Notes under the pieces: model-generated | The model's input: the letters and a program-made list of their open reading frames with translations, nothing else | The model's database searches: none | What the model was told of the DNA's origin: nothing | Assembly: GCF_011762185.1 (NCBI RefSeq) | Contig: NZ_JAASQJ010000001.1 | Location: forward strand, 1,612,001-1,676,000 | DNA from: Dyadobacter arcticus | GTDB lineage: Bacteria; Bacteroidota; Bacteroidia; Cytophagales; Spirosomataceae | Direction: 5' to 3' | DNA: 64,000 nucleotides | Made by a program: the position numbers and the translations under genes | In this document: piece after piece, positions 30,928-62,019 of the stretch | Position numbering within the stretch: position 1 is the stretch's first letter | Layout of the letters: each line of letters begins with the position of its first letter

Positions 30928-31682
30928 CAAGCCAGGAAAAGGATGACGTGATCCACCGGGTCCTGTTTGGAACGGCCACAACAGAAGACCAGACGCTTTT
31001 TGATTTATGGATGACTACGGACTCAGAGTTTAAAGAAACTTTTGAATTTCGGAAGCATCTGGGAGGACAGTTGCGACTGAAAAAACGGGATGAACTTAAA
31101 CTGACTTTCGAACAGATCAGGCAGGAGATGGACAGGGGGGAGTCGTTGCAGGATGATCTGCGTGTGATTCCGCTTTGGAAACGGGGATGGGTGGTTGCTG
31201 CAGCATCTGTTGTGCTTTTACTTGGTGTTTTCGTAGTGTTCAGGAATTCGTTTACGCCCGATCATCGAGCATCCATCTCAGCCGCAGATACCACTATTGT
31301 GCCCAAAGATTCTCTCCGGCTCAAAGCTCATAAGATGCACATCGCTTCTGATTCAAAAAAGCCAGATGTGCCGAAACCTGACCATCGTTTCCAAATGAAG
31401 GAGCTTTCCTTATATGAAACCAATGATGTAAGTCTGGGTTTTGGGAAAAATGAAAAGTCGGCTAATGTTGTGCCTGTGCTGTTTTTTCCAGGGAAACAAT
31501 GGCAATATGAATTTGAGGACACGCTTAAAATTTACATTCCGAAAACCGAATGGGGTCGGCAGTGGATACTAATTTATAACCAATCCGAAGACCAGTATTG
31601 GCTGGGCGACCGGAAGGAAAAGTTTTCGGTTATCAAGGGTTTGGAGGGACTAAGGTCTCTCAATAAGCCTATTCAGAATTAG
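30924..31682 (+). CDS. Putative single-pass anti-sigma factor
   Basis: A protein of 252 residues. A cytoplasmic helical part of about 85 residues precedes one membrane segment (about 88-107: GWVVAAASVVLLLGVFVVF). A periplasmic domain of about 140 residues with no known motif follows. Layout and ATGA overlap with the sigma gene indicate an anti-sigma role, although the N-terminus lacks the zinc-binding HxxxCxxC motif. It converges on the M48 peptidase gene with a 14-base overlap of the 3' ends. Confidence 0.72.
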   Translation: MTSQEKDDVIHRVLFGTATTEDQTLFDLWMTTDSEFKETFEFRKHLGGQLRLKKRDELKLTFEQIRQEMDRGESLQDDLRVIPLWKRGWVVAAASVVLLLGVFVVFRNSFTPDHRASISAADTTIVPKDSLRLKAHKMHIASDSKKPDVPKPDHRFQMKELSLYETNDVSLGFGKNEKSANVVPVLFFPGKQWQYEFEDTLKIYIPKTEWGRQWILIYNQSEDQYWLGDRKEKFSVIKGLEGLRSLNKPIQN

Positions 31683-42106: not shown

Positions 42107-42277
42107 GTTGCAGCCCCCCAAAATCTCGGTGAGCAATTCGGTGAGCAGACTTTTTGGTGTTGTCGTAAGATTCTGATTTTCAGTTAGATATAGACGAGTT
42201 TCATGTCCCTCTCTCTCTGCAGGACATGATGTCAAAACATTCAAAAACCCCGTTTAAACGCTTTAAACGGGGTTTTT
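42107..42277 (+). ncRNA. Candidate small RNA of about 170 nt
   Basis: This is the segment between a full promoter (42070-42100) and a strong terminator hairpin (42243-42277). It contains a tandem direct repeat TCGGTGAGCA (42126-42135 and 42138-42147) and a second hairpin TCATGTCC/GGACATGA (42201-42208 and 42222-42229) with a pyrimidine-rich loop. It is not similar to tmRNA, 6S, SRP or RNase P RNA as far as I can see. It may instead be the untranslated leader of the integrase gene with an attenuator. Confidence 0.35.
42243..42277 (+). terminator. Intrinsic terminator hairpin left of the integrase
   Basis: AAAAACCCCGTTTAAA, loop CGC, TTTAAACGGGGTTTTT: a perfect 16-bp stem ending in a T run, active in both directions. 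It separates the upstream promoter from the integrase gene. Confidence 0.8.
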
Positions 42278-42390: not shown

Positions 42391-42419
42391 GCAAGATGTT
42401 CACCCCGTAAACATCTTGC
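42391..42419. repeat. 10-bp inverted repeat at the left island boundary
   Basis: GCAAGATGTT (42391-42400) and AACATCTTGC (42410-42419) flank 9 bases. The right arm and centre are conserved at the right-hand copy (58488-58510), while the left arm is not. This is the pattern expected if the point near 42397/58488 is a recombination junction. Confidence 0.5.
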
Positions 42420-42513
42420 GTTTCAATGGTAACAATTCGATTTTTGTTCATCTTAAACATTATGTACTATGTTAGAAACAAGCTTCGGGTTGATTTTCTT
42501 TTTGAAAAGACCC
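42397..42513 (+). repeat. Left copy of integrase-leader repeat (island boundary)
   Basis: These 117 bases, covering the leader and first codons of the integrase, match 58488-58601 in the same orientation with scattered substitutions. Shared blocks include GTAAACATCTTG, CAATTCGATTTTTGTTC and the coding start ATG-TTA/CTA. The two copies bracket about 16.1 kb of defence genes. Confidence 0.75.
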
Positions 42514-43695
42514 AATCCAGAATTAGCGGACGGAATGCGCTATGTATATTGCCGCGTTACCGTCAATGGCGTTCCCAAGGACATCTCTACCAAACGCATT
42601 TGGCATCCGTCCAAGTGGAGCGTGGGTGCTGGTCGGGCGACCGGAAACAAGGAGGATACTAAAACATTGAATGCGTACCTTGATACGTTGACTTCGAAGA
42701 TTTACGAGGCAAAGCGGTCATTGATTGAGACAAACAAAGAGGTAACCTCGGAAGCTATCAAGAATATTCTTCTCGGCAGAACGGAAGGTGGGAAAACTAT
42801 CCTGCCCATCTTCCGTGAGCACAATGATCAGATCGCCGCTTTAATCGGAGCCGATTTTGCGCCAGGTACCTTGGAGCGATACGAGACATGTTTGAAACAC
42901 ACAAGTGATTTCATCAAATGGAAGTACCAAGCGGACGATTTTGAAATCAAGAAGCTAGACTACGAGTTCATATCACAATACGAGTTCTGGCTAAAAGCGG
43001 TCAAGAAAATCAGCCATAATACTACGATGAAGTATTTGGCTAACTTTAAGAAGATCGTGCTTCTGTGTGTTAAGAGAGGATGGCTGCAACGTGATCCGTT
43101 CTATGCTTTCAAATTTTCGAAGCGAGAGGTAGACCGACAGGCATTGACCGAAGGCGAGTTGAAGAAAGTATGGGAGAAAGATATGGGTGACGGCCGGCTT
43201 GCTCTTGTCAAGGACATTTTTTTGTTCTGTTGCTATACGGGACTGGCATATGCGGACATATATAAATTGAAGCGAACCGAGATTACCGAAGGGATTGACG
43301 GAGGAAAGTGGATAACGACTAAGCGACAAAAGACTGACACTCCATCCCGCATACCTATTTTACCAATGGCGTTGGAAATTTTGGAGAAGTACGAAGATCA
43401 TCCTCAATGCGAGAATGAGAATCGAGTGCTACCTGTGCTTTCGAATCAAAAGATGAATGCATATTTGAAGGAAATTGCAGATTTGTGTGGGATTAAGAAG
43501 AATATTACGTTTCACTTGGCTCGCCATACTTTCGCCACCACAGTGACTCTGACCAACGGAGTACCGATTGAAAGTGTTTCCAAGATGTTGGGGCATCGGA
43601 ATATTAAGACTACTCAGCAGTATGCTAAGATTGTTGATAGGAAGATTAGTGATGATATGGCGAGGTTGAAAGAGATCCTTATGGAAAAACAATAG
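42469..43695 (+). CDS. Tyrosine recombinase (IntDOT-like site-specific integrase)
   Basis: A protein of 408 residues with an N-terminal arm-binding domain (about 1-95), a SAM-like core-binding domain (about 105-205) and a catalytic domain. It shows the box-II HLARH (His349, Arg352), GHRNIKTTQQY (His376) and nucleophile Tyr385. The box-I arginine is absent (FCCYTGLAYAD), as in CTnDOT-type integrases. It heads the defence island and is the likely agent of its integration. Relics of two close relatives occur at 29667 and 58558. A terminator follows at 43786. Confidence 0.95.
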   Translation: MLETSFGLIFFLKRPNPELADGMRYVYCRVTVNGVPKDISTKRIWHPSKWSVGAGRATGNKEDTKTLNAYLDTLTSKIYEAKRSLIETNKEVTSEAIKNILLGRTEGGKTILPIFREHNDQIAALIGADFAPGTLERYETCLKHTSDFIKWKYQADDFEIKKLDYEFISQYEFWLKAVKKISHNTTMKYLANFKKIVLLCVKRGWLQRDPFYAFKFSKREVDRQALTEGELKKVWEKDMGDGRLALVKDIFLFCCYTGLAYADIYKLKRTEITEGIDGGKWITTKRQKTDTPSRIPILPMALEILEKYEDHPQCENENRVLPVLSNQKMNAYLKEIADLCGIKKNITFHLARHTFATTVTLTNGVPIESVSKMLGHRNIKTTQQYAKIVDRKISDDMARLKEILMEKQ

Positions 43696-43785
43696 ATTTA
43701 ACTAAGTTAGTTGCTAAATCTTCCTTGGCAACTTACAATAGTTAGGTACCTGGTTTAATCGCTTGCATACCATTGCTGCAAAGCG

Positions 43786-43822
43786 GAACACTTAGCTTAC
43801 AACCTAAGTGTTCTTTTATTTT
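43786..43822 (+). terminator. Rho-independent terminator after the integrase
   Basis: GAACACTTAG (43786-43795), 8-base loop, CTAAGTGTTC (43804-43813), then TTTTATTTT: a perfect 10-bp stem with a T tail, 91 bases after the integrase stop. Confidence 0.8.
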
Positions 43823-43870
43823 GACTGCTACGGCAACCAGATCTTGGCGTCGAGATGAAAGGGCGGTAAA

Positions 43871-43878
43871 TACTTTTG
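43871..43878 (+). promoter_or_regulatory. Candidate -7 box upstream of the cyclase-like gene
   Basis: TACTTTTG is an exact TAnnTTTG located 149 bases before the ATG at 44027, between the integrase terminator and this gene. The nearest TTG is 24 bases upstream (43844-43846), longer than usual. The rest of the 331-base gap (43696-44026) shows nothing else. Confidence 0.35.
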
Positions 43879-44026
43879 ATCTGGCCTATGTAGCTCCCCA
43901 CTTCGAGCGCTAATCGTTAAGTAATCAGGTTTTTGCAGTATGAAAGTGTGAATTTGTGTTTAGAAGTCACTGTTAAACAAATAAATTCAGGAACCTCATT
44001 TTGAATGTTTTGAAACACCCAATGTC

Positions 44027-44785
44027 ATGAATCGATACATAGCCTATTTCGATTTTCTAGGATACAAACAGTTCATTTTAAACAATACAAGTGAATATCT
44101 AAGACAACGAGCCCGTCATATTTTACGTGATATTGAAATGGCCTTATCACAGGAAAAATACAGGGAATTAAGGCCAGGGTTAGTCATTGCCGATTTGGAA
44201 GATGTGGTGATAAATTGCTTGAATATATCTGACACCATAATATTTTGGACTCTTGATGATAGTGTTAGGAGTTTAAAAGAACTACTCGCCGTAGCTCATT
44301 ACTTTAACTGGTTTCAGATTTATTTTGGCATTCCATTAAGAGGAGTGGTCATTGCCGGGGAAATGGAAATGCTCAGAGGCCACGAAGTGAATGCACACGG
44401 TGCTATCTACAGCAACAATTTGATATATGGACAAGGATTGCTAAAAGCCCATGAGAAAGCTGAGTCACTAAATTTTGCCGGATGTGTAATCGATGAATCT
44501 GTAATAAATAGTTTGGAAGCGAATATAGGCGCCAGAGAACTGCTAAGTCCATTCGCCAAACCATATCATACTCCTTACAAAGCCGGACATGAGCTCGGCA
44601 TCCCAGAATATGTACTGAATATCGTTAATAGGGAACTGAACGGAGACAGCTTCGATAATTTTAGGAATCGGATACAGGCACGGTTCTCTGCGGATAATAA
44701 GCCTGTGAACTCTCCCAGAGTGCAAGAGTTACTTACTAATACAATTGAATTTTTGGAAACTTATCGTGTAGAAAGCGGGGATTAG
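44027..44785 (+). CDS. Class III nucleotide-cyclase-like protein of the defence island
   Basis: A protein of 252 residues. The pattern fits a cyclase-homology fold: RYIAYFDFLGYKQF with Asp9 where the first metal-binding Asp is expected, NISDTIIFW (Asp69) as the second acidic strand, and IPLRGVVIAGEM (about 103-113) followed by LIYGQGLLKAHEKAES, like the RxGxxxG...GxxxNxAxRL strand and helix of adenylate/guanylate cyclases. It is a distant match and the active site may be degenerate. Cyclases of this kind serve as sensors in cyclic-nucleotide anti-phage systems (Pycsar), where an effector gene is adjacent. Here the next gene is an HNH nuclease 218 bases on. The function is inference. Confidence 0.5.
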   Translation: MNRYIAYFDFLGYKQFILNNTSEYLRQRARHILRDIEMALSQEKYRELRPGLVIADLEDVVINCLNISDTIIFWTLDDSVRSLKELLAVAHYFNWFQIYFGIPLRGVVIAGEMEMLRGHEVNAHGAIYSNNLIYGQGLLKAHEKAESLNFAGCVIDESVINSLEANIGARELLSPFAKPYHTPYKAGHELGIPEYVLNIVNRELNGDSFDNFRNRIQARFSADNKPVNSPRVQELLTNTIEFLETYRVESGD

Positions 44786-44909
44786 CACAAGTTAAAAAAG
44801 GCCGTCCCCTCTCTGACAGTGCCGTTTTATCTAATTACTATAATAGCTGGTCTACGAATACAAGCCAATGAGCCGCATAAGCTCGAGCACCTAAGTTACT
44901 GTATCCAGG

Positions 44910-44947
44910 AGTTTATCAACTAGATCCAGTTTTAATACTGATAAACT
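44910..44947. repeat. 9-bp inverted repeat before the HNH gene
   Basis: AGTTTATCA (44910-44918) and TGATAAACT (44939-44947) are exact inverted copies 20 bases apart, ending 57 bases before the HNH start. They may form an operator for the restriction genes. No controller (C protein) gene is visible. Confidence 0.4.
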
Positions 44948-45003
44948 AGACGTTAGAGATTTTTGATTTAACATTGAGGTACCAACACCTAACATTGCTG
45001 TTT

Positions 45004-45717
45004 ATGGGAGAAACCTTACGTATAGGATGGACCTATCATGAACTTGAAGTTGCTGTGGATGCGTATTTGCTTATGATGGCGTTTCAAAAAAGCAAGCAAA
45101 CCTATTCGAAGGCCGAGATACGTAGAAAGACATTAGAGGGCGGTCTAAAAAATCGTTCGTCGGCCTCATTCGAATATCGAATGCAAAACATATCGGCTGT
45201 AATCGCCGATTTCGGACTTTTGCCAGTTACCGGATATCTTCCAGCGTCAAACATTGGTCGAAACGCAGAAATAATCAAATCGATTTTGAGCACAAGACTT
45301 GGGTTAGATAGTACCATTGTCGCTCCGACATCGAATGAAGCAGAGCTAGAGAATAATGTTGGAATATTACTCCAGTCAGGCGTCATAAAGAAACCAATTG
45401 GTGTTTTGAAACCGGCTAGGTGTGAAATGACGGGTCAAAGTTCATTTTACAGGTCCGTACTTGTAAAGGCCTGGATCTTACAGGCAGCGTCAGGTATATG
45501 CGAAGGATGCGACACACCTGCACCGTTCAACTTAACTAACGGTCAACCCTACTTGGAGGTGCATCACGTCAAGCCGCTTGCCGAAGGAGGGCCGGACGTT
45601 GTAGAGAACGTGGTTGCCTTATGCCCGAACTGCCACCGGCGATGCCATCTATCTGTCGACCGTGACGCCTTTACAGCAAATCTTTACTTACGTGTTTATA
45701 GACTTGTTCCAGCATGA
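45004..45717 (+). CDS. HNH endonuclease (McrA-like, restriction-associated)
   Basis: A protein of 237 residues. The N-terminal 150 residues (RIGWTYHELEVAVDAYLLMM, SFEYRMQNISAV) are a helical domain found in restriction-linked HNH proteins. The C-terminal HNH has CEGC (Cys166, Cys169), LEVHHVKPLAEGGPD (His187-His188), ENVVALCPNCH (Cys207, Cys210, His211). The ATG at 45004 replaces the TTG at 44974. It probably cuts DNA as the restriction nuclease, or modification-dependent nuclease, of the following methylase system. Confidence 0.87.
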   Translation: MGETLRIGWTYHELEVAVDAYLLMMAFQKSKQTYSKAEIRRKTLEGGLKNRSSASFEYRMQNISAVIADFGLLPVTGYLPASNIGRNAEIIKSILSTRLGLDSTIVAPTSNEAELENNVGILLQSGVIKKPIGVLKPARCEMTGQSSFYRSVLVKAWILQAASGICEGCDTPAPFNLTNGQPYLEVHHVKPLAEGGPDVVENVVALCPNCHRRCHLSVDRDAFTANLYLRVYRLVPA

Positions 45718-45801
45718 ATTATAATTTTATATTATTTGAGAATACCAGTTTGAACAAAAGGTTCGCTATTTTACCCAAAAACACTTTTTAAGATTGACTG
45801 C

Positions 45802-46227
45802 ATGCCAATTCAGCAAACAAGTGCTGCTAGAAGTTACAATATGTCCCGCATTCGAGCGAAAAACACCTCACCTGAAATTGCGATAAGAAAAGCTTTGTTC
45901 AAACAAGGTTTGAGATTTCGATTGCATGTCCGCAATCTCCCAGGCAAGCCAGATATCGTGTTTTCAAAACAGAAAACCGTCATTTTTGTCCATGGATGCT
46001 TCTGGCATTCACATCCAGGCTGCAAAAGGGCAACAATACCTAAATCCAATATTGACTACTGGATCCCGAAAATAACCAACAATACTCTTCGCGACCAACG
46101 CCACTATCACGAATTAGAAACGCTGGGATGGCGAGTATTCGTCGTGTGGGAATGTCGAACAAAAGTTTTGTTCTTGGTTGATACTGTAAATGACATCGTA
46201 AAGTTTCTCGATAGGGGTAGTCCGTAG
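45802..46227 (+). CDS. vsr: Very short patch repair endonuclease (Vsr)
   Basis: A protein of 141 residues. It has the Vsr signatures MSRIRAKNTSPEIAIRKAL, LPGKPDIVF with catalytic Asp51, VIFVHGCFWHSHPGC (His64, His69, zinc Cys) and GWRVFVVWEC. Vsr nicks at T:G mismatches made by deamination of 5-methylcytosine, so it is expected with a C5 methyltransferase. The dcm-type gene lies 7.2 kb downstream, with the GHKL/Z1/DUF4420/AIPR genes between. Confidence 0.93.
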   Translation: MPIQQTSAARSYNMSRIRAKNTSPEIAIRKALFKQGLRFRLHVRNLPGKPDIVFSKQKTVIFVHGCFWHSHPGCKRATIPKSNIDYWIPKITNNTLRDQRHYHELETLGWRVFVVWECRTKVLFLVDTVNDIVKFLDRGSP

Positions 46228-46272
46228 CATTAAAAAAAAGTTATATTGCATCCCCTCTTCTTTATATTATTG

Positions 46273-47676
46273 ATGTTAAATACCGAAACTGTAAACCCTA
46301 ACCTTGCCAACTTCATATTGTCTTTAAGGGATATCGGCTATTCATTCGAGGTTGCGGTAGCCGACCTCATTGACAATAGCGTATCTGCGCGAGCTTCGAC
46401 AATCCAAATTCACTCGATAGTACATCCCGCACCAATTTTTTGTATGATAGATGATGGTTTTGGCATGAGCGAGGAGGAACTCGTTGAAGCTATGAGACTT
46501 TCGTCTAAAAGTCCATTGGGCAGTCGTGATAAAAGTGACCTTGGCAGATTTGGGCTGGGACTGAAGACCGCATCTTTCTCACAATGTAAAAAGTTGACCG
46601 TAATATCAAAAAAAGGTGGGGTGATTTCGGCACGTCAGTGGGATCTTGACTTTATCTCTGAGAAAAATGAGTGGCTTCTGATAAATCCATCCAACTGCTC
46701 AACGCTACCCTACTATGACGTTATCTCGAAGCAACAATCCGGAACACTGGTCTGCTGGGAAACATTAGACCGTCTCGGTAAAAACGAACATGCCTATGTG
46801 ATAGATAAACTCAGGAAACATCTTGCCCTCGTTTTCCATAGATATCTCGAAGGCGGCCAGGGCATCAAGGCACTGAAAATACTAGTAAACAATAATCCGG
46901 TTGTTCCGTTTAACCCATTTAATTCCGCAAATGACTACACTCAGGAGCTACCAGTAGAGAAAATATGGCTACAGCGGTCACTAATCAAGGTGCAACCGTA
47001 TATTCTCCCACACCATTCCAAGTTATCCCTTCAGGAATACAATCTTTACGCGACCGAGGAAGGGTATCTCAAATCTCAGGGATTCTATTTGTATCGACGA
47101 AATCGTATTCTCATTCACGGGACATGGTGGGGCTTGCATAAAGCACTCGATGCACACAAACTTGTACGAATTAAAATTGATATCGAAAACGACATCGATC
47201 ACCTGTGGGGTATTGATGTCAAAAAATCTATTGCTAGACCGTGCGATGAAATTAGAAATGACCTGAAGAGAATCATTGACTTAGCTACTCAACGAGGATC
47301 TAAACCTTTTGTCACACGTGCTAAAAGAATTGAAAGTAAAGATGTAATACAAACGTGGGATCTTATTGCCAGTAACAATGAAATTCGATTTGTCTTAAAT
47401 CGGTCGCATCCCTTGTACAAGTCACTTTTAGAATCCCTTACTGCTTCTGCTGCCTTGGAAACGTATCTAAAAAGCATCGAGGCATACCTTCCAATCGATG
47501 CCATTCAATATCATCTTCAGGTAAGTCCCTATTCTGTAAAGCAAGAAGCGTCTTTGACGGAAGCAGACATTCAAGAACTAGCAACGAGGATACTTTCTGC
47601 GGGACTCCCCCTTAACTACATGGAGGAGCTGCTTAAAACTGACATATTCACTAATCGACGAGATCTCCTAATCTAA
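46273..47676 (+). CDS. GHKL (HSP90/MutL/MORC-like) ATPase of restriction-type system
   Basis: A protein of 467 residues. The Bergerat ATP-binding fold is complete: VADLIDNSVSA (metal-binding Asn35), IDDGFGMS (Asp61, Gly62-Gly64), and GRFGLGLKTASF (91-102). The start is the ATG at 46273, not the leading TTG at 46246. ATP-driven dimerisation in this family can clamp DNA. The TAATG overlap with the Z1 gene shows obligate coupling. Families of this kind were linked by comparative genomics to restriction-modification systems and to the origin of MORC ATPases. Confidence 0.9.
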   Translation: MLNTETVNPNLANFILSLRDIGYSFEVAVADLIDNSVSARASTIQIHSIVHPAPIFCMIDDGFGMSEEELVEAMRLSSKSPLGSRDKSDLGRFGLGLKTASFSQCKKLTVISKKGGVISARQWDLDFISEKNEWLLINPSNCSTLPYYDVISKQQSGTLVCWETLDRLGKNEHAYVIDKLRKHLALVFHRYLEGGQGIKALKILVNNNPVVPFNPFNSANDYTQELPVEKIWLQRSLIKVQPYILPHHSKLSLQEYNLYATEEGYLKSQGFYLYRRNRILIHGTWWGLHKALDAHKLVRIKIDIENDIDHLWGIDVKKSIARPCDEIRNDLKRIIDLATQRGSKPFVTRAKRIESKDVIQTWDLIASNNEIRFVLNRSHPLYKSLLESLTASAALETYLKSIEAYLPIDAIQYHLQVSPYSVKQEASLTEADIQELATRILSAGLPLNYMEELLKTDIFTNRRDLLI

Positions 47677-50345
47677 TGGAAACCAAGAGTTACCAAGTAT
47701 TGCTTGAATTTATATCTGCTAAACTACGTAAAATTGACGGTGTCTTGCCAAAAGGCAAGATAGCCGAGGAGATCATGAATACCAGGGTGTTAATCGATGC
47801 CATTGGTTCCGAAAATTTTGCTATACTACTTTCATTGTCAAATTTCACCGTTCCTGGAACAGACGATTTGCTTAAACTTTCGAGAGAGCTTGAAACACAT
47901 TTTGACGTTAAGATGGATAGTGGTTTCCTTATACAAGGGGAGGAACAGCGTGAAAGGGATACAACATGGTGGACAAGTATATCAAAGCAAAGATCAAAAA
48001 ATTACTATTGGAATCGTTTACAGAAATACTTAGAGACCAGTCTGCCGCCAGATGTTATCAGAACACTTGATGTAGATACCGATATGGTTATGAACAATTT
48101 GGAAAGTCCAAGCGTTTCGGATTTTTCTCGTTATGGAATGGTTGTAGGTCACGTTCAGTCAGGAAAGACAGGCAACTTTTCAGCCCTGATTTGCAAGGCG
48201 GCAGACTCTGGTTACAAGTTTATCGTAGTAATATCCGGCGATAAGAATATCTTAAGGACTCAGACACAGGAGCGACTTAACGAGACATTTGTCGGGCAAA
48301 CAGAAGGCATTCAAGTCGGCGCTGGAAAAGGTAACGCAAGCAAAGAGCTCTTACCCATTAGCCTAACGACTATTGAACGAGATTTCAATAAACGTGACGC
48401 AGACAAATCTGCGCAAGGACTAAATTTTGACAACGTTAGTGTTCCAATTCTTATAGTGATTAAGAAAAACACGAGCACGTTAAACAGTGTTATAGAGTGG
48501 CTTCAAAAGCAATATCGGAACAACGTTATTGATCATGCGATGCTTGTCGTGGACGATGAGTCCGATTACGCTTCGATAAATACAAAAGATAATGAAGATC
48601 CTACCGCAATAAACAGAAAACTGCGAACACTAATCAGTTTATTTCATAAAAGCGCTTACGTAGCTTACACGGCTACACCCTACGCTAACATCTTCATTGA
48701 CCATGAAGTGGAAACGGCAGCATACGGAAGAGATCTATTCCCAAAAGATTTTATATATGCTCTAGATGCACCATCTAATTATTTTGGAGCTAGGAGGTTC
48801 TTTCTAGATCCGAAGCGAAGTAACTTAGTAAAGATATCCGATTGGGCCGAAGTACTACCTCTAAAGCACAAAAGTGATTTCGAAGTCGTTTCTTTACCTG
48901 AAAGTATGTTAGATGCGATTCGGGCATTTACATTGGTCATTTCAATCAGACACCTCAGGGGGCAAGATGAGAAACATAACAGCATGCTGATACATGCGAC
49001 TCGATTTACGGATGTACACATAAGGCTAAGTAAACGCGTTGAAGACTATCTCACATCAATAAAAGAGGCGGTGACAGTCTACGGAAAGCTTCCTAACGCA
49101 GTGGCGCAAAATGCCCTACTGCAAGACCTTCAAAAAACATTTGATACACATTATAAATATATTGAGCTCAGTTTCCACCAAGTGTTGGGGAAGCTTGCGG
49201 AGATAGCGGAAACTATCGTAGTTCGTGAGGTACATCAAAAAACATCTGTGCCACTGGAATATCGCAAAGACACACCAACTAATGCGATCGTGATAGGCGG
49301 CACAAGTCTTTCCAGAGGATTTACATTAGTCGATTTATCAGTAAGCTATTTTCTCAGGAGTACTATTTTTTATGACACTCTAATGCAAATGGCAAGATGG
49401 TTTGGATATCGACCAGGCTTCGAGGATTTATGCCGAGTCTTTATGCCAAAAACTAGAATGGACGATTTTGCCGAGGTCATCAGTAGTACTGAGGAGCTAT
49501 TCGATGATTTTAAGGTTATGTCGGAAGCAAAAATGACTCCCAGTGATTTTGGACTAGCGGTGCGAGAAAACCCAAACAGCTTCCTTCAAGTAACCGCAAG
49601 AAATAAACTAAAGAATGTCAAGGTACTTAACCATTCCATGCAGCTTGATGGGCGTTTAAAGGAAACCAGTTACCTTCTTTGGACAAAGACCGATATTAAA
49701 CATAACGTCGATGCAATAAAGAAGCTTATTATGAAACTCGGTACTCCGGAAGAGGTAGAAAAAAGCTTAATCTGGCGACAAATCGATAAAGGGCGTATTT
49801 TAGAGTTTTTAGGAACTTATCGTACATATGGCAATGACCGACTTGGGTTAACATCACGAATGCCCATAGCGTTTATTGAAAAATATGCCCTTGAAAGGAA
49901 TACTGATTGGGATATCTCGCTTCACAGCGGAGAAGGTGACGAATTCCACATTGGTGCACATAAGGTTAAGAAACAAAAAAGACGCTTCAATAGACATTCA
50001 GGCCATTTGGAACTTCAAAATCGGCAAGTTTCATCAGGATCAGCAGAAGCAATTGGAATCGAAGATCCAGAACTGCGTAAATCAGTTGCGAACAGCCGAG
50101 GCAAGACAAGAATATTGCTTTCAAGGCCACTTCTTATGCTCCATATTTTAGAAGAAAGCGATGCCAAAGAAGAGGCAAATACTGTGAATGATTTAAACAT
50201 TCCTATCAAAGAGATTGCCGCTTTTGGAGTAAGTTTTCCTGGAAATGCCGCTAAAAAAGGCGAGTCGATTACTTTAAGAATAAATACTGTCTACTATCAA
50301 AATATTTTGAAAGATATTGAGCAAAATGAAGGATTTGACGACTAA
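47676..50345 (+). CDS. Z1-domain superfamily II helicase-like ATPase
   Basis: A protein of 889 residues. Walker A is GHVQSGKT (158-165), Walker B-like LVVDDESDYAS (DDESD at 293-297), and motif III-like AYTATPYANIF (TATP at 332-335). GGTSLSRGFTLVDL and MQMARWFGYRPG (about 535-575) are the C-terminal helicase motifs V/VI. This is the Z1 arrangement (PF10593 type), seen with AIPR and GHKL proteins. It probably translocates on or remodels DNA for the nuclease partner. It starts one base into the GHKL stop and overlaps the next gene by 20 bases. Confidence 0.93.
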   Translation: METKSYQVLLEFISAKLRKIDGVLPKGKIAEEIMNTRVLIDAIGSENFAILLSLSNFTVPGTDDLLKLSRELETHFDVKMDSGFLIQGEEQRERDTTWWTSISKQRSKNYYWNRLQKYLETSLPPDVIRTLDVDTDMVMNNLESPSVSDFSRYGMVVGHVQSGKTGNFSALICKAADSGYKFIVVISGDKNILRTQTQERLNETFVGQTEGIQVGAGKGNASKELLPISLTTIERDFNKRDADKSAQGLNFDNVSVPILIVIKKNTSTLNSVIEWLQKQYRNNVIDHAMLVVDDESDYASINTKDNEDPTAINRKLRTLISLFHKSAYVAYTATPYANIFIDHEVETAAYGRDLFPKDFIYALDAPSNYFGARRFFLDPKRSNLVKISDWAEVLPLKHKSDFEVVSLPESMLDAIRAFTLVISIRHLRGQDEKHNSMLIHATRFTDVHIRLSKRVEDYLTSIKEAVTVYGKLPNAVAQNALLQDLQKTFDTHYKYIELSFHQVLGKLAEIAETIVVREVHQKTSVPLEYRKDTPTNAIVIGGTSLSRGFTLVDLSVSYFLRSTIFYDTLMQMARWFGYRPGFEDLCRVFMPKTRMDDFAEVISSTEELFDDFKVMSEAKMTPSDFGLAVRENPNSFLQVTARNKLKNVKVLNHSMQLDGRLKETSYLLWTKTDIKHNVDAIKKLIMKLGTPEEVEKSLIWRQIDKGRILEFLGTYRTYGNDRLGLTSRMPIAFIEKYALERNTDWDISLHSGEGDEFHIGAHKVKKQKRRFNRHSGHLELQNRQVSSGSAEAIGIEDPELRKSVANSRGKTRILLSRPLLMLHILEESDAKEEANTVNDLNIPIKEIAAFGVSFPGNAAKKGESITLRINTVYYQNILKDIEQNEGFDD

Positions 50346-51279
50346 GAATTTAACTGATCTTTGGCAGCTGATGCACCCGGATTCTCAAAGACGCTTAAAT
50401 AATACACTACATGAGATATTTTGCATTAAAGACACTCAGTCACGGTATGGAATAAAGATTTGCTATCCTAACACAAATGCTTTCGATCGAAGTATAATTA
50501 AGATCCAGGGCATAACAGTTGTTACGAAACGTTCTGATAATAAGACGGAGTTGCACATTTTGCTCAATAGCATTGGCAATTTGGACATATTTTCCATTCT
50601 ATGCATCGACATAATTGAAACAATATCACAATGCAAGAGTGAATCCAATTTACTGCATAAGGTTTTTGGCCGACTACATAGGTGGCAAAGGTTCCTCGCC
50701 AAAAACTCCGCTTTAATTCTTAGCAAAGAACGCCAGATGGGGCTATTCTCGGAGCTCATGATCCTGCGCGACTACCTAATTCCGTCTATTGGCATACGAG
50801 CCGCATTGGAATGCTGGACAGGGCCCGATTTCGACAAAAAAGACTTTTCTACCCATAGGTCTTTTATTGAAGTCAAATCATTAATATCTAGCAAGGGGTC
50901 GAACATTATGATTTCCTCACTAACCCAACTTGATGCCGAAGTTAAACCTTTATGGCTTGCAGTCTACTATATAAGTGAGAATAGCATTGGAGAATCCATC
51001 TCCGATGTTGCCAGTACCCTGCTTGAGAAAATAGGAGACGATAGTCAATCGGAACGTCTGCTTTTAGACAAACTATCTGATTATGGATATCTATTTGGTC
51101 CACCGGAGATTCCTTTATTTCAATGGCTTGTTGATCGCGTATCGTTTTATTCAGTGGTTGATTCATTTCCTAAAATTTTAGCTAAAAATATCGCCTACCA
51201 AATTTCGGATGTGATATATCGTATTGATTTATCAAATTGTCGAGATTTCGAAACGGATTTTGCGAAAATAACTTTATAA
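50326..51279 (+). CDS. PD-(D/E)XK nuclease-like protein (DUF4420 type)
   Basis: A protein of 317 residues. The nuclease core has ERQMGLFSELMILRDYL (Glu143), CWTGPDFDKKDF (Asp173) and the catalytic strand SFIEVKSL (Glu182-x-Lys184). This is the pattern of the putative PD-(D/E)XK family linked with Z1 and AIPR genes. The ATG at 50326 lies inside the end of the Z1 gene (20-base overlap), and the next gene begins 1 base after its stop. It is the likely DNA-cutting subunit of the complex. Confidence 0.85.
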   Translation: MKDLTTKNLTDLWQLMHPDSQRRLNNTLHEIFCIKDTQSRYGIKICYPNTNAFDRSIIKIQGITVVTKRSDNKTELHILLNSIGNLDIFSILCIDIIETISQCKSESNLLHKVFGRLHRWQRFLAKNSALILSKERQMGLFSELMILRDYLIPSIGIRAALECWTGPDFDKKDFSTHRSFIEVKSLISSKGSNIMISSLTQLDAEVKPLWLAVYYISENSIGESISDVASTLLEKIGDDSQSERLLLDKLSDYGYLFGPPEIPLFQWLVDRVSFYSVVDSFPKILAKNIAYQISDVIYRIDLSNCRDFETDFAKITL

Positions 51280-51280
51280 C

Positions 51281-53326
51281 ATGCCAAGCTTAGAAGAATT
51301 TCATCAAGATTTTTTACAATCGATACTTTCCGATTCCGAGAGTAGGGGCGTTCTTAAATCACAATCCTTTTTTGAGATTGCATGCGAGGACTTAGTAAGC
51401 ACCGGTGATCTTACTGGAAACTATACCACAGCAGACTACTCAAAAAAAGGTATGGAAGTTTCGGGCTTTGATTATGATGAAGAAAGGAAAGTACTAACAA
51501 TCTTAAATCACCAATTTTTTCAAGATGACGAGCTGCAGACATTGACAAAAAGTGTACTTGAAAACAAGCTTGCTAGGCTTCGAAAATTCTACACAAGTGC
51601 CGTAGACGGATTGTTCAAGAATATTGAAGAAACCTCTGAAGCCTATGGCATGGCATACAACATCTATCGATACGCTCAACGAGATCAAGTCCGGAGAGTA
51701 AGATTTATTGTTTTGACTGACGGCAAGATATCTCGAAACTTACTAGATATCCCCATAGAACAAAAAGGTGGTATCGACTACGAAAGTAGAGTGATTGACC
51801 TTGAATACCTCTATAAAATATACGAAACTGCATCGGGTAGCGCTGGTTTTGAAGTAGAAGTTAATTTGCCTTGCCTGAGGGTGAATGACAATCGTCATGA
51901 CTATTTTTCTTATCTGACGGTTGTAAATGGGAAAACACTAGTCCAAGTGTATGAGGAGTTCGGTCAGAAACTCTTTGAGCAAAACGTTAGAACATTTCTC
52001 CAATTTAAAGGCAATGTAAATAAAGGTCTACGAAATACAATTGAATACAAGCCAGAGATGTTTTTCGCGTATAACAATGGTATAACGGCGACCGCATCTG
52101 ATGTAGAACTGGATGAAAAGACCGGAAATATAAGGAAAATAGCAAATTTCCAGATTGTGAACGGCGGACAAACTACGTCCGCAATTTACGCGGCATTTAA
52201 GAATTCAGGGCTCAGTGTTGATGATGTATCCGTTCAGATGAAACTATCTGTTGTGAAAGATGCAAGGCTCCAGGACGAGTTTATTTCGCGTGTAGCCGAG
52301 TATGCAAACACACAGAATAAAATCAACAATTCTGATTTCTTCTCAAACAGCCCATTTCATAAGGACATTAAAGAGTATTCGACTAGAATTTTTGCACCTG
52401 CAGTCGGGGGAGCACAACGCCGAACACATTGGTTCTACGAGCGAGTTCGTGGCGAATACCTTAACAGTCAAGCTTATTTAAAAGCAGATGTAAAACGACG
52501 ATTCTTGATAGAGAATCCTAAAAATCAGGTATTTGATAAAACGCTACTATCGAAGACAGAAAATTTGTGGCTGCAAAGACCAGATATCGTGTCCAAAGGT
52601 GCACAAGAAAGTTTTAAAAAATTTGCGGAATACATTGGTGACTTACTGGAAAAGGACGATTTGGCTATCACCGAGTCCTTTTACAATGAAGCCATTGCAC
52701 GGATTATTTTGTTCCGCACAATGGAACGAATTGTTAGCAAGGCTCCTTGGTATGACGGCGGTTTCCGAGCACAAACTGTGGCGTATTCGATTTCTTATCT
52801 TTCGGCAGTTGTTCAAGCATCCAACGTATTTCTGAATTTTGATCTTATATGGGAGCTGCAAGCGGTTCCCGCCGAGCTCGAAAGTGTACTTGGCATCATC
52901 GCTGAGAGGGTGTATGCTACAATAACGCATCCAGCGTCAGGTTACGCAAATATTGCGCAGTGGACAAAGAATTCCAATTGCTGGGAAAGTGTCAAGCTTA
53001 TGAATGTAGACTTACCTGAATTGGACTCATCATTGTTTATTGACCGACAGACTAGCAAGTATAAGCAAAAGGAGAGCAAGAATATCAAATCAATCGACCA
53101 AGGGATTGATAAACAGATATTTGTGATTCAGCGATCGCGAGAGGACTGGCGAAAGCTTTTCAACTTTTACACAGCACGAAATGGTAGACGAATACTGAGC
53201 GGCATGCAACTCGACATGCTAGAAAAAATGGCTTCAGGTTATATCACAACTCCTTCTGAAAAACAATCAAAAATTTTATATGAGATCTTCCGCGATGCTC
53301 AAAGTGACGGATTTGATCCTTCGTAA
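51281..53326 (+). CDS. AIPR-family abortive-infection phage-resistance protein
   Basis: A protein of 681 residues. The family core is clear: MFFAYNNGITATAS (about 262-275), FQIVNGGQTTSAIYAAF (about 288-305), then VVKDARLQDEF, AEYANTQNKIN and SDFFSNSPFHKDI. AIPR (PF10592) is known from abortive-infection phage resistance and is often last in GHKL/Z1/DUF4420 operons. The molecular activity is not established. The N-terminal 200 residues may include a degenerate nuclease-like fold. It ends 103 bases before the methyltransferase. Confidence 0.93.
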   Translation: MPSLEEFHQDFLQSILSDSESRGVLKSQSFFEIACEDLVSTGDLTGNYTTADYSKKGMEVSGFDYDEERKVLTILNHQFFQDDELQTLTKSVLENKLARLRKFYTSAVDGLFKNIEETSEAYGMAYNIYRYAQRDQVRRVRFIVLTDGKISRNLLDIPIEQKGGIDYESRVIDLEYLYKIYETASGSAGFEVEVNLPCLRVNDNRHDYFSYLTVVNGKTLVQVYEEFGQKLFEQNVRTFLQFKGNVNKGLRNTIEYKPEMFFAYNNGITATASDVELDEKTGNIRKIANFQIVNGGQTTSAIYAAFKNSGLSVDDVSVQMKLSVVKDARLQDEFISRVAEYANTQNKINNSDFFSNSPFHKDIKEYSTRIFAPAVGGAQRRTHWFYERVRGEYLNSQAYLKADVKRRFLIENPKNQVFDKTLLSKTENLWLQRPDIVSKGAQESFKKFAEYIGDLLEKDDLAITESFYNEAIARIILFRTMERIVSKAPWYDGGFRAQTVAYSISYLSAVVQASNVFLNFDLIWELQAVPAELESVLGIIAERVYATITHPASGYANIAQWTKNSNCWESVKLMNVDLPELDSSLFIDRQTSKYKQKESKNIKSIDQGIDKQIFVIQRSREDWRKLFNFYTARNGRRILSGMQLDMLEKMASGYITTPSEKQSKILYEIFRDAQSDGFDPS

Positions 53327-53343
53327 CTTTTAACCGGATTTGT

Positions 53344-53351
53344 TATCTTTG
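53344..53351 (+). promoter_or_regulatory. Candidate -7 box for the cytosine methyltransferase
   Basis: TATCTTTG is an exact TAnnTTTG 79 bases before the GTG start. No good -33 TTG stands at 19-21 bases. It suggests that the methylase has its own promoter in the 103-base gap, useful for protecting host DNA before the nuclease is made. Confidence 0.4.
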
Positions 53352-53429
53352 TTTTAAGACAGTCTTGGTGTTTGAACGCCAGTTTCAAAGCAGGTCATAA
53401 TATCCTGTAAACAAGCTATTTAGTGTAAA

Positions 53430-54539
53430 GTGGAGCAAAAAATTGGAATAGATATATTTAGTGGCGCGGGCGGCCTCAGCTGGGGAGCAGAAAATGCTGG
53501 TATCAAAATCCGCCTTGCGGTCGAAAAGGATGCCTCTGCCGCGAAGACTTTCTCGACGAACCATCCTGGTGTCACAGTTTTATGTCAGGATATTACAAGT
53601 ATTGATCCTATGGCGTATGTTGATCAGCGTCCTTTTATCGTCTTTGGTGGACCTCCTTGCCAAGGTTTCAGTATTTCAAACACCAAAACTCGGACAGTAG
53701 ACAATCAAAACAATTTGCTATTTAATGAATTTGTACGGTTTGTAGAGGCCCTTCAGCCTGCTTGGTTTCTTTTTGAGAATGTTGAGGGTATCAAGTCTTT
53801 TAAACGAGGTGAGACAGTACGACTGATTAAAAAATGCTTTGCGGCAATTGGCTATGAAACTGTTGAAGACGTACTGTATGCTTCCGATTATGGAGTGCCG
53901 CAGCATCGCAATCGTTTTTTTATGGTTGGGAATCGAATTGGAAAAAGTTTTGCATTTCCGGACAAAATTGACCAACGCGTTACTGTGGCAGAAGCAATTT
54001 CTGATTTGCCTGATCTTCAAAACGGAGATATAAACAATGAACTCCCTTACAAAAAAACGTTGGGCGAAGCTAGCGACTATGCTAAGATGATGAGAGCAAA
54101 CTCCAGCTCTTCACTTCAAAATTTTGTATCGAGAAATGAAGACTACGTTCTCGAACGGTACAAGCACATCGGTCAAGGTCAAAATTGGAGGGCGATCCCA
54201 ATTGATTTGATGTCTAATTATACTGATAGAAACAACTGTCATAGTGGAATTTATAAGCGTCTTAGCGCTCAAGCACCATCAGTTGTTATATCTAACTACC
54301 GAAAAAATATGTTAATCCACCCTTACCAAGATCGGGGGCTATCAGTTCGCGAAGCTGCACGGCTCCAAAGTTTTCCCGATCATTTCAAATTTGAAGGTTC
54401 ACTAATGCGTATTCAACAACAAATTGGCAATGCTGTCCCACCGTTACTTGCCGAGGTTATCTTCAAACAAATTACGCTGATATCAGATGGTCTAATCGAA
54501 GTTTCTCAACCTCCGGCTAACCAATTAGAGATATTTTGA
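53430..54539 (+). CDS. dcm: C5 DNA cytosine methyltransferase
   Basis: A protein of 369 residues with GTG start. Motif I is DIFSGAGGLSWG (8-19), motif IV FGGPPCQGFS (catalytic Cys77), motif VI FENVEG (Glu116-Asn-Val) and motif VIII QHRNRFF (158-164). The C-terminal QIGNAVPP is motif X-like. The target-recognition region (about 185-290) is moderate in length, and the target sequence cannot be read. The Vsr gene in the same cluster supports 5-methylcytosine as product. It is convergent with the large GHKL gene. Confidence 0.94.
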   Translation: MEQKIGIDIFSGAGGLSWGAENAGIKIRLAVEKDASAAKTFSTNHPGVTVLCQDITSIDPMAYVDQRPFIVFGGPPCQGFSISNTKTRTVDNQNNLLFNEFVRFVEALQPAWFLFENVEGIKSFKRGETVRLIKKCFAAIGYETVEDVLYASDYGVPQHRNRFFMVGNRIGKSFAFPDKIDQRVTVAEAISDLPDLQNGDINNELPYKKTLGEASDYAKMMRANSSSSLQNFVSRNEDYVLERYKHIGQGQNWRAIPIDLMSNYTDRNNCHSGIYKRLSAQAPSVVISNYRKNMLIHPYQDRGLSVREAARLQSFPDHFKFEGSLMRIQQQIGNAVPPLLAEVIFKQITLISDGLIEVSQPPANQLEIF

Positions 54540-54805
54540 TCTCAAATCTGCAAGTTTTTTTAGGATAATACAATCTGCATATTTGTAAACTTCGATTATC
54601 CTGAGTTCAAAATTCACTGAGAGTTTCTATTGTCTCAAGGTATGCTGATTTGGTAAACTTAGCAGTTAAGAGATTGTCCAAAACAAAAACTAAAAGTGAC
54701 ATACATTTTGATATCAATAAGGGAGCAATTTTGCGAACTTATCATAATAATGTTCAAAATAGCGAATTGCTAAGTACCGATGGCATTTGTTTTGAAGAAC
54801 GAAGT

Positions 54806-57800
54806 TTAATTTATAATCCTTTCAACGAACTCGCTCAGAAAATCTTCAAAATCTGTTATACTTAGTCCGTTCTCCATAAATTTTATGGGCACTAATGTTC
54901 GATAGTCACCATCTAAACGGATTGTGTCAGGTTCTTTCGTTTGGTTTAAAACGTCGACCAGATGAGTTACTTCATAACCTATATCCTTATTAAATCTTAT
55001 GCAGTGTTCGATCTCCGTAATATTTTGAATACTGTATCTATTGTCTCCCATATATTTTGTCATATCAACAAAGCACAAGGCGTAGTTGTTTCTCTGCTCA
55101 TCAGCTTTGAGAGTTTGATTTTTTGACATGCGGATAGGAGTACTAACATCCCATCTTGACTTTACTTCAATAAAATAAGCCTCATTTCCCTTGACCCTGA
55201 CGATGATATCTTGTCCATCTTGCTCATTCTCAATTTCGGCTCTGATTTCACTAGAAATGATACTTACCAAACGTTCTCTCAGAACATTTTCAATATGGGT
55301 TCCAATAGCATACTTATGTTGAAAATTCGCAGTTTCTTGTTGCTGCTTTTGTACCGCTTCTTCCCCAAGCTTTATTATCGTTTCAAACAGGACGCTGTTT
55401 CCTAGCTCGGCCAATTTCCTGATTCGCGATGGATCCAAGCTAAGAATAGAAAAACTATCTTCACCATCCGCGAGCTCAACAAGTATTGAAGAGCGTCTAC
55501 TAAAAATTAATGGAAACAGTTTTCCTATTTCGGACGATGTTTTTGTCTGTTCTATTATATTAAGAATTTCCTTTTTAAAGGGATGCTCGTTGATCGAATC
55601 GTTTGTTTGTTCAGTAAAAAATGCACTTTCAATTCTTTCAGTTAGGTCCCGGGCGGTTCTTTTCTGTTTGTTTTTGAGGAATTGGCTAAAATCCCCATCT
55701 ACTAAGCTAGCCCTAATCGGCAAATTTGGCTTGATAACCAAGTCGTATAGATTTTTAATCTCTTCAAGAATATTGTCGTCCACAATTAGTCTACTTTGTT
55801 CGCTCAGCTCTCTCAACTGGTTGGGGAAAACCGGCAATGTCAGGAACATCTCTTCATAGGCCTCGTAGTTCGCGCCGGTTGCAATAACGTCTTTAAGAAA
55901 GTCGATATTTTCAACTACCCAATCGTTTCCTTCCATACTAATATCATTTAAGAATAACCTTACCAATCTTCTTTGTGGCGGCCTTAGGTCAAGGTCATCT
56001 TCTTTCACTGTTGGAATAACTAGAATATCCTCGCTATAACTGTAATACCGGCAAATCAATTTCAGCATTCTACTAGGCACACTGAAAGAATCAACTGTCA
56101 TTGTCACTTTGCAATAGTTGATCAACTGTTCGATAAACTCTTTTGGAATTTTGCTACTGATTGCTTTTTCAGTCAAGACAGCCGCAATATGTTCGTTGAT
56201 CTCAGTAGAATAATTCTTTCTGTTATAGTCGGGAAACTCAAGAGTAAACTTAAAATCGGCATGTACATGTCGTTTCGGAACATGAGGCATTATTACATTA
56301 GCTATCTCAATAAATTCGTCAGGTAGATTCAGTTTATTATTTAGACCACCATTGCCTGACAACTGCCTGAATTCACCTTGGATGTTAGGAAGCAGTTTAT
56401 TAGTATTAAACAAATCGGCATGCCCATGTTCAATGAGGTAGGTGTAAAAACATTTTAGGTCATTTGGCTCTTTGAAAAAGTCTAAATTTTCGAACTCCTG
56501 AATCTTGTTCACGATATCAATGATGCGTATATATGTTGTCTCGGTAAAAAACCAGTCGCCCATCTTTTTGGTCCACTCCCTAATAAGGTGACGTTTAGGT
56601 ATATTGCTCCAGAATTGTTCAGCAAGAGTAAAAATAGCGTCAAAACTATTTTCATCAAGCAATAGCTCCTCATGAAAAAACAAAATTTCCGACGGACGGC
56701 GATTTCCATCTTTTGTTTCAACCAAACGATATGTCATAAACTGATTAACCCACGTAGATTTCAATTCGATAAAATACTCATTTAGTAAAAGGTCATCACT
56801 GTTAACGTTAAAATTAATTGTTGCTAACTTTATAGGGTTATTTATGAAATCAGCTTTTGAGCTGATGAAGTCAAATATCAAACCAGATGCTCGTTGAATT
56901 AACAATCTATTGCCTGCTTCCTCGTCACGATTTGAATCATAATCCGAACTTAAGTAGAGGCCATCCCTGGGTTCAGTAGGCCGAAATTGTCGTGAATGGA
57001 TGATAAAATTGAAGCCAAAAGTTTGGCTACTGATTAGGGGATAATATAAAAATAAACGCGGTAGTTGTTCGTCAAGATCAAAGGCTTCAAACTTACGTGT
57101 AAGCGGTAGTATAATAACTATCTTCTCGTTTTCATCCTCTATATAGCAAATCTCTTGAACAATGTCATTGATACTTATCGGCCTTACTGTGAACGAACCG
57201 TCCGAATAGGCATTCTTCTTTTCATAAAATGTCTGACTGCCATCTATATCGGTGACGGTCACTGAACTCAGTTTTGGGTTTAAGGCCATCACATATGGAA
57301 GAATGAGCCTTAAAGATGTTAGTGTTTTTTTCGCTAATTCCTTATTGTGGTCAGTGGAAGTGCGATAAATAAACGAAGTATCAGGATATGGTGGTCTAAG
57401 GAGTTGGTCCGTTTTGAGGAGAGAGGATACTCGTTTTTTCAGTTGACTAATCCGGTCAGCAAGTTCTCGCCAGTTGTCTGTCGATCGGTTAATTACAAAT
57501 TGCTCCAACGGAACGTAACCTTCTCCTTTAGCAAGACCACCATCTATCCTTAGTTCCTTTCCATAGACGTGCGTGGTTATGAAACCTGTTCCATATTGAC
57601 CGACAGGGTCACTTTCATCGTAAAAGTCCTTTTTCTCTTCTAGTGTCTTTGAGCTCACCTGTTTAAATAAACAGTCTAGCGTCATGGGTGTAAATGGCTC
57701 GCCATTGTGCCTGAACTCAAATGAATGGTCAGTGAGTGTTATTCGAACATGACACTCACTACTTAAGTCGACAGCGTTCTGAAACAATTCCCATATAGCC

Positions 57801-57949
57801 CGACTCGCATCGTTGCTATCTAGCTTTTTAATGCCCTGGATAATCTTGTTAGCATGTTGTCTCATGTCGTTTTGCTCCGACTGACGCTCATAATCATCGG
57901 CCGTATCTATACGTGAATGAGATATTTCTGAATTGTTCTCCTCTATCAT
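54806..57949 (-). CDS. Large GHKL ATPase with C-terminal DUF3883/NO VEIN-like nuclease domain
   Basis: A protein of 1047 residues. The N-terminal HSP90-like fold has AIWELFQNAVDLS (Glu54, Asn58), FEFRHNGEPF (78-87) and DPVGQYGTGFITTH (114-127). The middle 700 residues have no motif I know. The C-terminus has EAYFIEVKSRWD with Glu928-x-Lys930, as in DUF3883 (restriction-endonuclease-like) domains. This layout (sacsin-like ATPase plus nuclease) occurs in stand-alone phage-defence candidates. It converges with the methyltransferase, so it is a separate transcription unit and may be an independent system. Confidence 0.85.
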   Translation of the reverse strand: MIEENNSEISHSRIDTADDYERQSEQNDMRQHANKIIQGIKKLDSNDASRAIWELFQNAVDLSSECHVRITLTDHSFEFRHNGEPFTPMTLDCLFKQVSSKTLEEKKDFYDESDPVGQYGTGFITTHVYGKELRIDGGLAKGEGYVPLEQFVINRSTDNWRELADRISQLKKRVSSLLKTDQLLRPPYPDTSFIYRTSTDHNKELAKKTLTSLRLILPYVMALNPKLSSVTVTDIDGSQTFYEKKNAYSDGSFTVRPISINDIVQEICYIEDENEKIVIILPLTRKFEAFDLDEQLPRLFLYYPLISSQTFGFNFIIHSRQFRPTEPRDGLYLSSDYDSNRDEEAGNRLLIQRASGLIFDFISSKADFINNPIKLATINFNVNSDDLLLNEYFIELKSTWVNQFMTYRLVETKDGNRRPSEILFFHEELLLDENSFDAIFTLAEQFWSNIPKRHLIREWTKKMGDWFFTETTYIRIIDIVNKIQEFENLDFFKEPNDLKCFYTYLIEHGHADLFNTNKLLPNIQGEFRQLSGNGGLNNKLNLPDEFIEIANVIMPHVPKRHVHADFKFTLEFPDYNRKNYSTEINEHIAAVLTEKAISSKIPKEFIEQLINYCKVTMTVDSFSVPSRMLKLICRYYSYSEDILVIPTVKEDDLDLRPPQRRLVRLFLNDISMEGNDWVVENIDFLKDVIATGANYEAYEEMFLTLPVFPNQLRELSEQSRLIVDDNILEEIKNLYDLVIKPNLPIRASLVDGDFSQFLKNKQKRTARDLTERIESAFFTEQTNDSINEHPFKKEILNIIEQTKTSSEIGKLFPLIFSRRSSILVELADGEDSFSILSLDPSRIRKLAELGNSVLFETIIKLGEEAVQKQQQETANFQHKYAIGTHIENVLRERLVSIISSEIRAEIENEQDGQDIIVRVKGNEAYFIEVKSRWDVSTPIRMSKNQTLKADEQRNNYALCFVDMTKYMGDNRYSIQNITEIEHCIRFNKDIGYEVTHLVDVLNQTKEPDTIRLDGDYRTLVPIKFMENGLSITDFEDFLSEFVERIIN

Positions 57950-58487: not shown

Positions 58488-58601
58488 TGTTCACCAGGTA
58501 AACATCTTGATTTTCAATAATATCAATTCGATTTTTGTTCCTCTAAACAACAAGGTTATGCTAGGAAACAAATTCGAGTTGATCTTTTACTTAAAGATCC
58601 C
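58488..58601 (+). repeat. Right copy of integrase-leader repeat (island boundary)
   Basis: Same orientation as 42397-42513. The match begins at TGTTCACC and runs through GTAAACATCTTG, TTTCAAT and CAATTCGATTTTTGTTC into the first codons of a truncated integrase. Sequence left of 58488 is unrelated to that left of 42397. Confidence 0.75.
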
Positions 58602-60514: not shown

Positions 60515-61177
60515 ATGGAAAGCAAAATGAAAGGAAGACCACCGAAAGAGGAGAAGGTTGTGCGAAGGGATCACTTTTCTGTATGGGTTACCAAAGACGA
60601 AAAAATCAAGATCAACCAGCTAATTGAAAAGAGCGGACTTTCAGCAAGCCAATTCTTTTTGACATTGGTACTTGACACGCCAATCAAACGGCCACAAAAG
60701 AAAACGTTGCCCGCCCGAACGGCGGAGATGATCCGGACGCTCGAACAGCTCAGCGGCATTCTGTCGCTTGCGGTTTTGAAAACGAAAGACCATCAGATGC
60801 AAAGTCGGCAATGGATGCAGAGTAGTCAGCACCTGCGCTTACTTTCGCAGATCATCACGCTCTGGATATTTGAAGATTTTGAGATCAGGACATTTCATAA
60901 GACGCTCAACAATGTGCAGGAGTGGATGCACCAGCTGACGCTATACATTCAGAGGATCCTGCCAGAATCTCAAAACAAGACAAGCATTCTTAAAACAACT
61001 GAAAACATCTTTCGTAATGCACAAGAGCTACTGGCAAAGTATGAGAGCTACTATCAGCCCAGTGAGCTGACCGGACAGGTTCGGGTATGGAAGTCGGATG
61101 TGTCGGATCATCCCGATCAAGTGCATAGGATCATTGAAGAGAAGGTCACGGCAATGCTTAAACGTTTAGACTTATGA
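60515..61177 (+). CDS. mobA: MobA-like plasmid mobilization accessory protein
   Basis: A protein of 220 residues. The N-terminus is a ribbon-helix-helix-type DNA-binding region (GRPPKEEKVVRRDHFSVWVT, then KIKINQLIEKSGLSASQFF), as in Bacteroidetes MobA/MobC relaxosome proteins. A long helical C-terminal part follows. It probably binds the oriT-like palindrome just upstream and loads the relaxase. ATGA overlap with the relaxase gene. Confidence 0.8.
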   Translation: MESKMKGRPPKEEKVVRRDHFSVWVTKDEKIKINQLIEKSGLSASQFFLTLVLDTPIKRPQKKTLPARTAEMIRTLEQLSGILSLAVLKTKDHQMQSRQWMQSSQHLRLLSQIITLWIFEDFEIRTFHKTLNNVQEWMHQLTLYIQRILPESQNKTSILKTTENIFRNAQELLAKYESYYQPSELTGQVRVWKSDVSDHPDQVHRIIEEKVTAMLKRLDL

Positions 61178-62019
61178 TAGGGAAAGTGGGTTTGGGAAAC
61201 TTCGCGAAGGGAATATTGAGCTACTGTTATTACGAAAAGGAGTTGACAGCAAAACAATTGAAAGAAGTTACGATTGACGACGTTCGGGGAGAGCTTATTT
61301 ACATTCAGCATCTTGGCATAAATACAATGCAGGACGGAAGGCTGGACTTGGATTATCTAGCCAAGCAAATGCTGGATAACAGGGACAAAAACAGAAATCT
61401 CAATAAATATGTTTGGCATCAATCGTTCAGCTTTCCCCCAGGGGAAGATCCGTCCACAGAGAAGCTCACCAACTTGGTCGTAGAGTTTGCAAAGGAATTT
61501 GGTTTTGCGGAGAATCAAATGCTTGCCTTCAAGCATAACGACACGAAGCATAAGCACATTCATATTGTCGCAAACCGGATCAACTACAACGGCAAAAACA
61601 CCGCCGATCATTTTAAGAACTATGCGCGGACGGGCGAATTCTCAAGACGAATGGAATTGGAACTTGGACTAACTATAACTTCTGACATGAGCTTGAATCA
61701 AAAAGGAAAGCAGCAAGCACCAAGGCAGGATACAGCAATCATCAACCTCCAGACTTTGGTTGACCAAGTATTAGCAAAAGCATCTTCAATCGATGAGTTC
61801 GGAAGGCAAATGCAAACGCACGGATTCAAGACGTATATAGGAAGAGGTGTAACTTTTTTCAATATGCAAAATCGGATGAAAGTGAAAGGTTCTGATTTGG
61901 GGAAAGACTACTCATTGCAGAATCTTGAACAGCGAATGGGTATGGAGATGTCGCAAGCTTTTGTGCCTATAAAACGGAAGAAGAAGTCTCGGCGGAAACG
62001 ACAAGGACTGAGTATCTAA
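61174..62019 (+). CDS. mobB: Relaxase/mobilization nuclease (MobB, MOBP-like)
   Basis: A protein of 281 residues. The relaxase metal site HNDTKHKHIHIVANRIN (His121, His126, His128, His130) is clear, with the N-terminal GNFAKGILSYCYYEKE holding candidate catalytic tyrosines. It nicks oriT and pilots the strand during conjugation. It is compact (281 residues) compared with longer relaxases but typical of small Bacteroidetes mobilizable elements. No coupling protein or T4SS is in the window, so transfer would need a helper. Confidence 0.9.
   Translation: MIGKVGLGNFAKGILSYCYYEKELTAKQLKEVTIDDVRGELIYIQHLGINTMQDGRLDLDYLAKQMLDNRDKNRNLNKYVWHQSFSFPPGEDPSTEKLTNLVVEFAKEFGFAENQMLAFKHNDTKHKHIHIVANRINYNGKNTADHFKNYARTGEFSRRMELELGLTITSDMSLNQKGKQQAPRQDTAIINLQTLVDQVLAKASSIDEFGRQMQTHGFKTYIGRGVTFFNMQNRMKVKGSDLGKDYSLQNLEQRMGMEMSQAFVPIKRKKKSRRKRQGLSI

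Follow-up and report, generated by a model that had tools for sequence, protein, structure and literature searches.

A restriction-type operon with a MORC-type ATPase and a C5 cytosine methylase in Dyadobacter arcticus

Introduction

Positions 45004..54539 of a 64,000-nucleotide stretch of Dyadobacter arcticus (contig NZ_JAASQJ010000001.1; hereafter the window) encode an HNH protein, a Vsr endonuclease, a GHKL ATPase (subunit B), a helicase-like ATPase (C), a DUF4420 protein (D), an AIPR protein (E) and a C5 cytosine methylase (M), which raises the question of which of these proteins form one system and which of them would cut DNA. The original prediction of a multi-gene restriction-type set at this location is confirmed, and its reading is upheld in part; the evidence supports a single restriction-type unit in which an ATPase, a helicase-like ATPase, a nuclease and an AIPR protein are joined by a C5 methylase, but not the assignment of HNH and Vsr as the cutting nucleases. 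The gene set is of a known kind that has been little studied.

Results

Conservation of the operon

The set was compared across 81 loci, the window's own included, of which 70 are complete, with 1179 open reading frames (ORFs) of at least 150 residues serving as motif controls; Pfam and PADLOC scans covered the ten window proteins at 42469-57949 (E <= 0.001). The hidden Markov model families proposed by the original prediction (PF10593, PF14390, PF10592, PF00145) were all matched in window proteins, and the co-occurrence elsewhere on which it had staked its claim was found: the four genes B to E keep one order across very different bacteria, and a methylase lies within 2.5 kb in 64/70 complete loci. 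In Bacillus and Neobacillus records (L025, L029) a tandem pair of B-C-D-E sets is seen, with the methylase between and Vsr at the end.

With the TTG at 46246 taken as residue 1, the MORC motif (GhXhhpXXRhl) of subunit B stands at residue 279 as GFYLYRRNRIL, encoded at approximately 47080-47112; it is present in all 70 complete loci vs 4 of the control ORFs. The superfamily II (SFII) helicase motif DThhQXuRhFG appears in subunit C as DTLMQMARWFG at residue 567, and is found in 69/70 loci and none of the 1179 controls. Subunit D is, from its family assignment alone, a restriction endonuclease (RE) fold protein with the E-D-ExK signature; its four residues E146, D176 and E185-x-K187 (the TTG at 50317 being residue 1) are invariant in the 70 loci. 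The set likely marks the host cell's own DNA, and it is predicted that the two ATP-consuming proteins, one with the MORC signature motif, would deliver a DNA-cutting enzyme onto unmarked invading DNA.

Features of the system and its edge in the window
Feature	Coordinates	Strand	Evidence or remark
Tyrosine integrase, left edge of island carrying the system	42469..43695	+	PF00589, PF13102, PF17293
HNH protein, C-terminal part E. coli McrA-like; probable passenger	45004..45717	+	McrA chain 6ghc E
Vsr endonuclease, accessory	45802..46227	+	TIGR00632, 148.4 bits vs cut-off 97.85
GHKL ATPase, MORC type (B)	46273..47676	+	PF13589, 129.8 bits; top PADLOC match MzaB
Helicase-like ATPase (C), between B and D	47676..50345	+	PF10593; SF2 fold of model
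Segment inside the C gene	49653..50270	+	Exchange demonstrated in relatives, not the window's own copy
DUF4420 PD-(D/E)XK protein (D), predicted nuclease	50326..51279	+	PF14390, 229.4 bits
AIPR protein (E)	51281..53326	+	PF22879 and PF10592
TAnnTTTG, candidate -7 box of methylase promoter	53344..53351	+	Weak
C5 cytosine methylase (M)	53430..54539	+	PF00145, 234 bits; motifs PPCQGFS, ENV, QHRNR, GNAV

Vsr follows the methylase

Vsr is present in 39 of the 70 complete loci and was not found near the other 31; where both genes occur it adjoins the methylase gene in 31/38 loci, 26 of these 31 being divergent from the methylase. Grouped by methylase cluster, Vsr accompanies 27/28 members of one cluster, 0/9 of another and 6/13 of the window's own. 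E25 is kept in 39/39 Vsr proteins of the loci, and D51 and H69 in 38/39; these three we take to be the catalytic residues. This pattern, in which Vsr tracks the methylase family and mostly adjoins the methylase gene, fits an enzyme that repairs deaminated 5-methylcytosine (5mC) rather than a core component, and Vsr is likely the methylase's repair partner.

The HNH and AIPR proteins

Residues 113-244 of the HNH protein match McrA chain 6ghc E (2.5e-30), indicating an HNH domain related to McrA; McrA has an N-terminal domain that reads 5mC, whereas the match in the window protein begins only at residue 113 and the stretch from residue 19 to 117 has its match in the candidate family PDC-S36. Across the 81 loci the full-length HNH model is strong in the window only (546 bits), with weak matches in L023 (89), L035 (24) and L040 (25), and at E <= 1e-25 it is confined to the window's own genome among 296 genomes of the phylum. 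At E <= 0.001, 828 relatives of the protein were retrieved, and many of the 120 listed are named McrA-like and many are from Pseudomonas; it is considered a probable passenger gene. When the C-terminal half alone is modelled, less strictly, matches extend to L041, L035, L023 and L040, and weakly to L021, and a looser link to the system may exist.

In the AIPR protein, residues ~203-370 give a weak ParB/DndB-like match (VIA-align) and the C-terminus is helical; residues 1-188 are treated below. The AIPR reading is in two pieces at L006:14994-19566 (~2.6 kb between) and at L066:15118-17182 (overlapping frames).

Discussion

Which protein cuts?

The original prediction had proposed a 5mC-based self/non-self scheme in which HNH and Vsr act as two separate restriction nucleases. 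McrA, matched by the C-terminal half of the HNH protein, is a 5mC-specific nuclease, the HNH gene adjoins Vsr in the window, and in L023 and L035 relatives of that half lie ~0.3 kb or less from the system; the scheme is nevertheless very improbable, as the strong full-length HNH match is limited to 1/81 loci, Vsr was not found near 31 of the 70 complete loci and follows the methylase family, and a host with a C5 methylase beside a 5mC-cutting nuclease would be at risk unless their sites differ.

An abortive-infection role is less remote, yet still unlikely: here the complex would sense infection, and the AIPR protein, perhaps with DUF4420, would kill the infected cell through damage to its DNA or RNA, with the methylase serving only as a restraint. 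AbiU is the second PADLOC match for AIPR, and PMC3506569, in the part available, groups AIPR with AbiU1 and assigns it an N-terminal HEPN toxin domain. However, the structure predicted for window AIPR residues 1-188 (pLDDT, predicted local distance difference test, blocks mostly >80) mixes alpha and beta elements in a PD-(D/E)XK-like domain of nuclease-like fold, rather than being an all-helical HEPN; this domain is without (D/E)xK in a 45-row alignment, and the invariant active site sits in DUF4420.

Genomic context

The stretch at 42206-42221 resembles a tRNA 3' end and is found again ~33.4 kb downstream, at genome position G000:C1:1687607; ARAGORN found no complete tRNA in either stretch around these repeats. 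A 53-base repeat (42397-42449 and 58488-58540, 87%) precedes both the integrase and a short integrase-like start at ~58554 (identified by eye), and therefore two integrative elements side by side are suggested. NikA/MobC-like and MobA-type relaxase genes are located at 60515-62019; the island or its neighbor may be mobilisable. Directly after the methylase, and convergent with it, lies a second defense-type gene (54806-57949, - strand), encoding a 1047-residue protein with sacsin-type ATP-binding and NOV_C domains and 841 bits to PADLOC TmtA. A 252-residue protein (44027-44785) between the integrase and HNH genes has no Pfam, PADLOC or NCBIfam match (E <= 0.001). Outside the system, at 31669-36263 (- strand), a TPR-CHAT protein (33282-36263) overlaps a 547-residue protein without a Pfam match.

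Comparison with known systems

For every subunit from B to E the top PADLOC match is an MZA protein (mzaABCDE), in the same order; however, the window set differs in having a methylase, all NCBIfam MZA equivalog scores are far below their cut-offs (MzaB 313/850, MzaC 435.4/1500, MzaD 128.5/420, MzaE 270.2/1050 bits), and the mzaA models have no match in a scan limited to the ten proteins at 42469-57949. In CglI and NgoAVII, as far as the available portion of PMC4267653 describes them, three genes are present and the nuclease is a PLD-B3 R-protein, whereas no PLD or B3 Pfam family was detected among those ten proteins (E <= 0.001); ATP-driven movement in those systems is an inference of that paper's authors. 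Pin25611FIII of Prevotella intermedia, a predicted restriction system, is counted among the closest by its description in part of PMC5608340, not by sequence. The putative type II-A/B system of Miller et al. 2022 (PMC9523054) is likewise similar by description rather than sequence; the part of that description available names neither Vsr nor HNH, both of which are in the window.

The claim that the mechanism of this operon is not worked out agrees with the literature found. The third type of MORC/paraMORC restriction-modification operon (Iyer, Abhiman and Aravind 2008, PMC2292703) has in common a MORC-motif GHKL protein, an SFII helicase with DThhQXuRhFG, an RE-fold protein with E-D-ExK, a cytosine methylase and Vsr, and AIPR is named in a figure legend gene list of that paper. 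In this operon type an S5 domain follows the GHKL domain. The window holds the MORC motif, the SFII helicase motif and a neighboring E-D-ExK RE-fold protein of this type; because Iyer 2008 and Miller 2022 describe this operon kind, its novelty is reduced.
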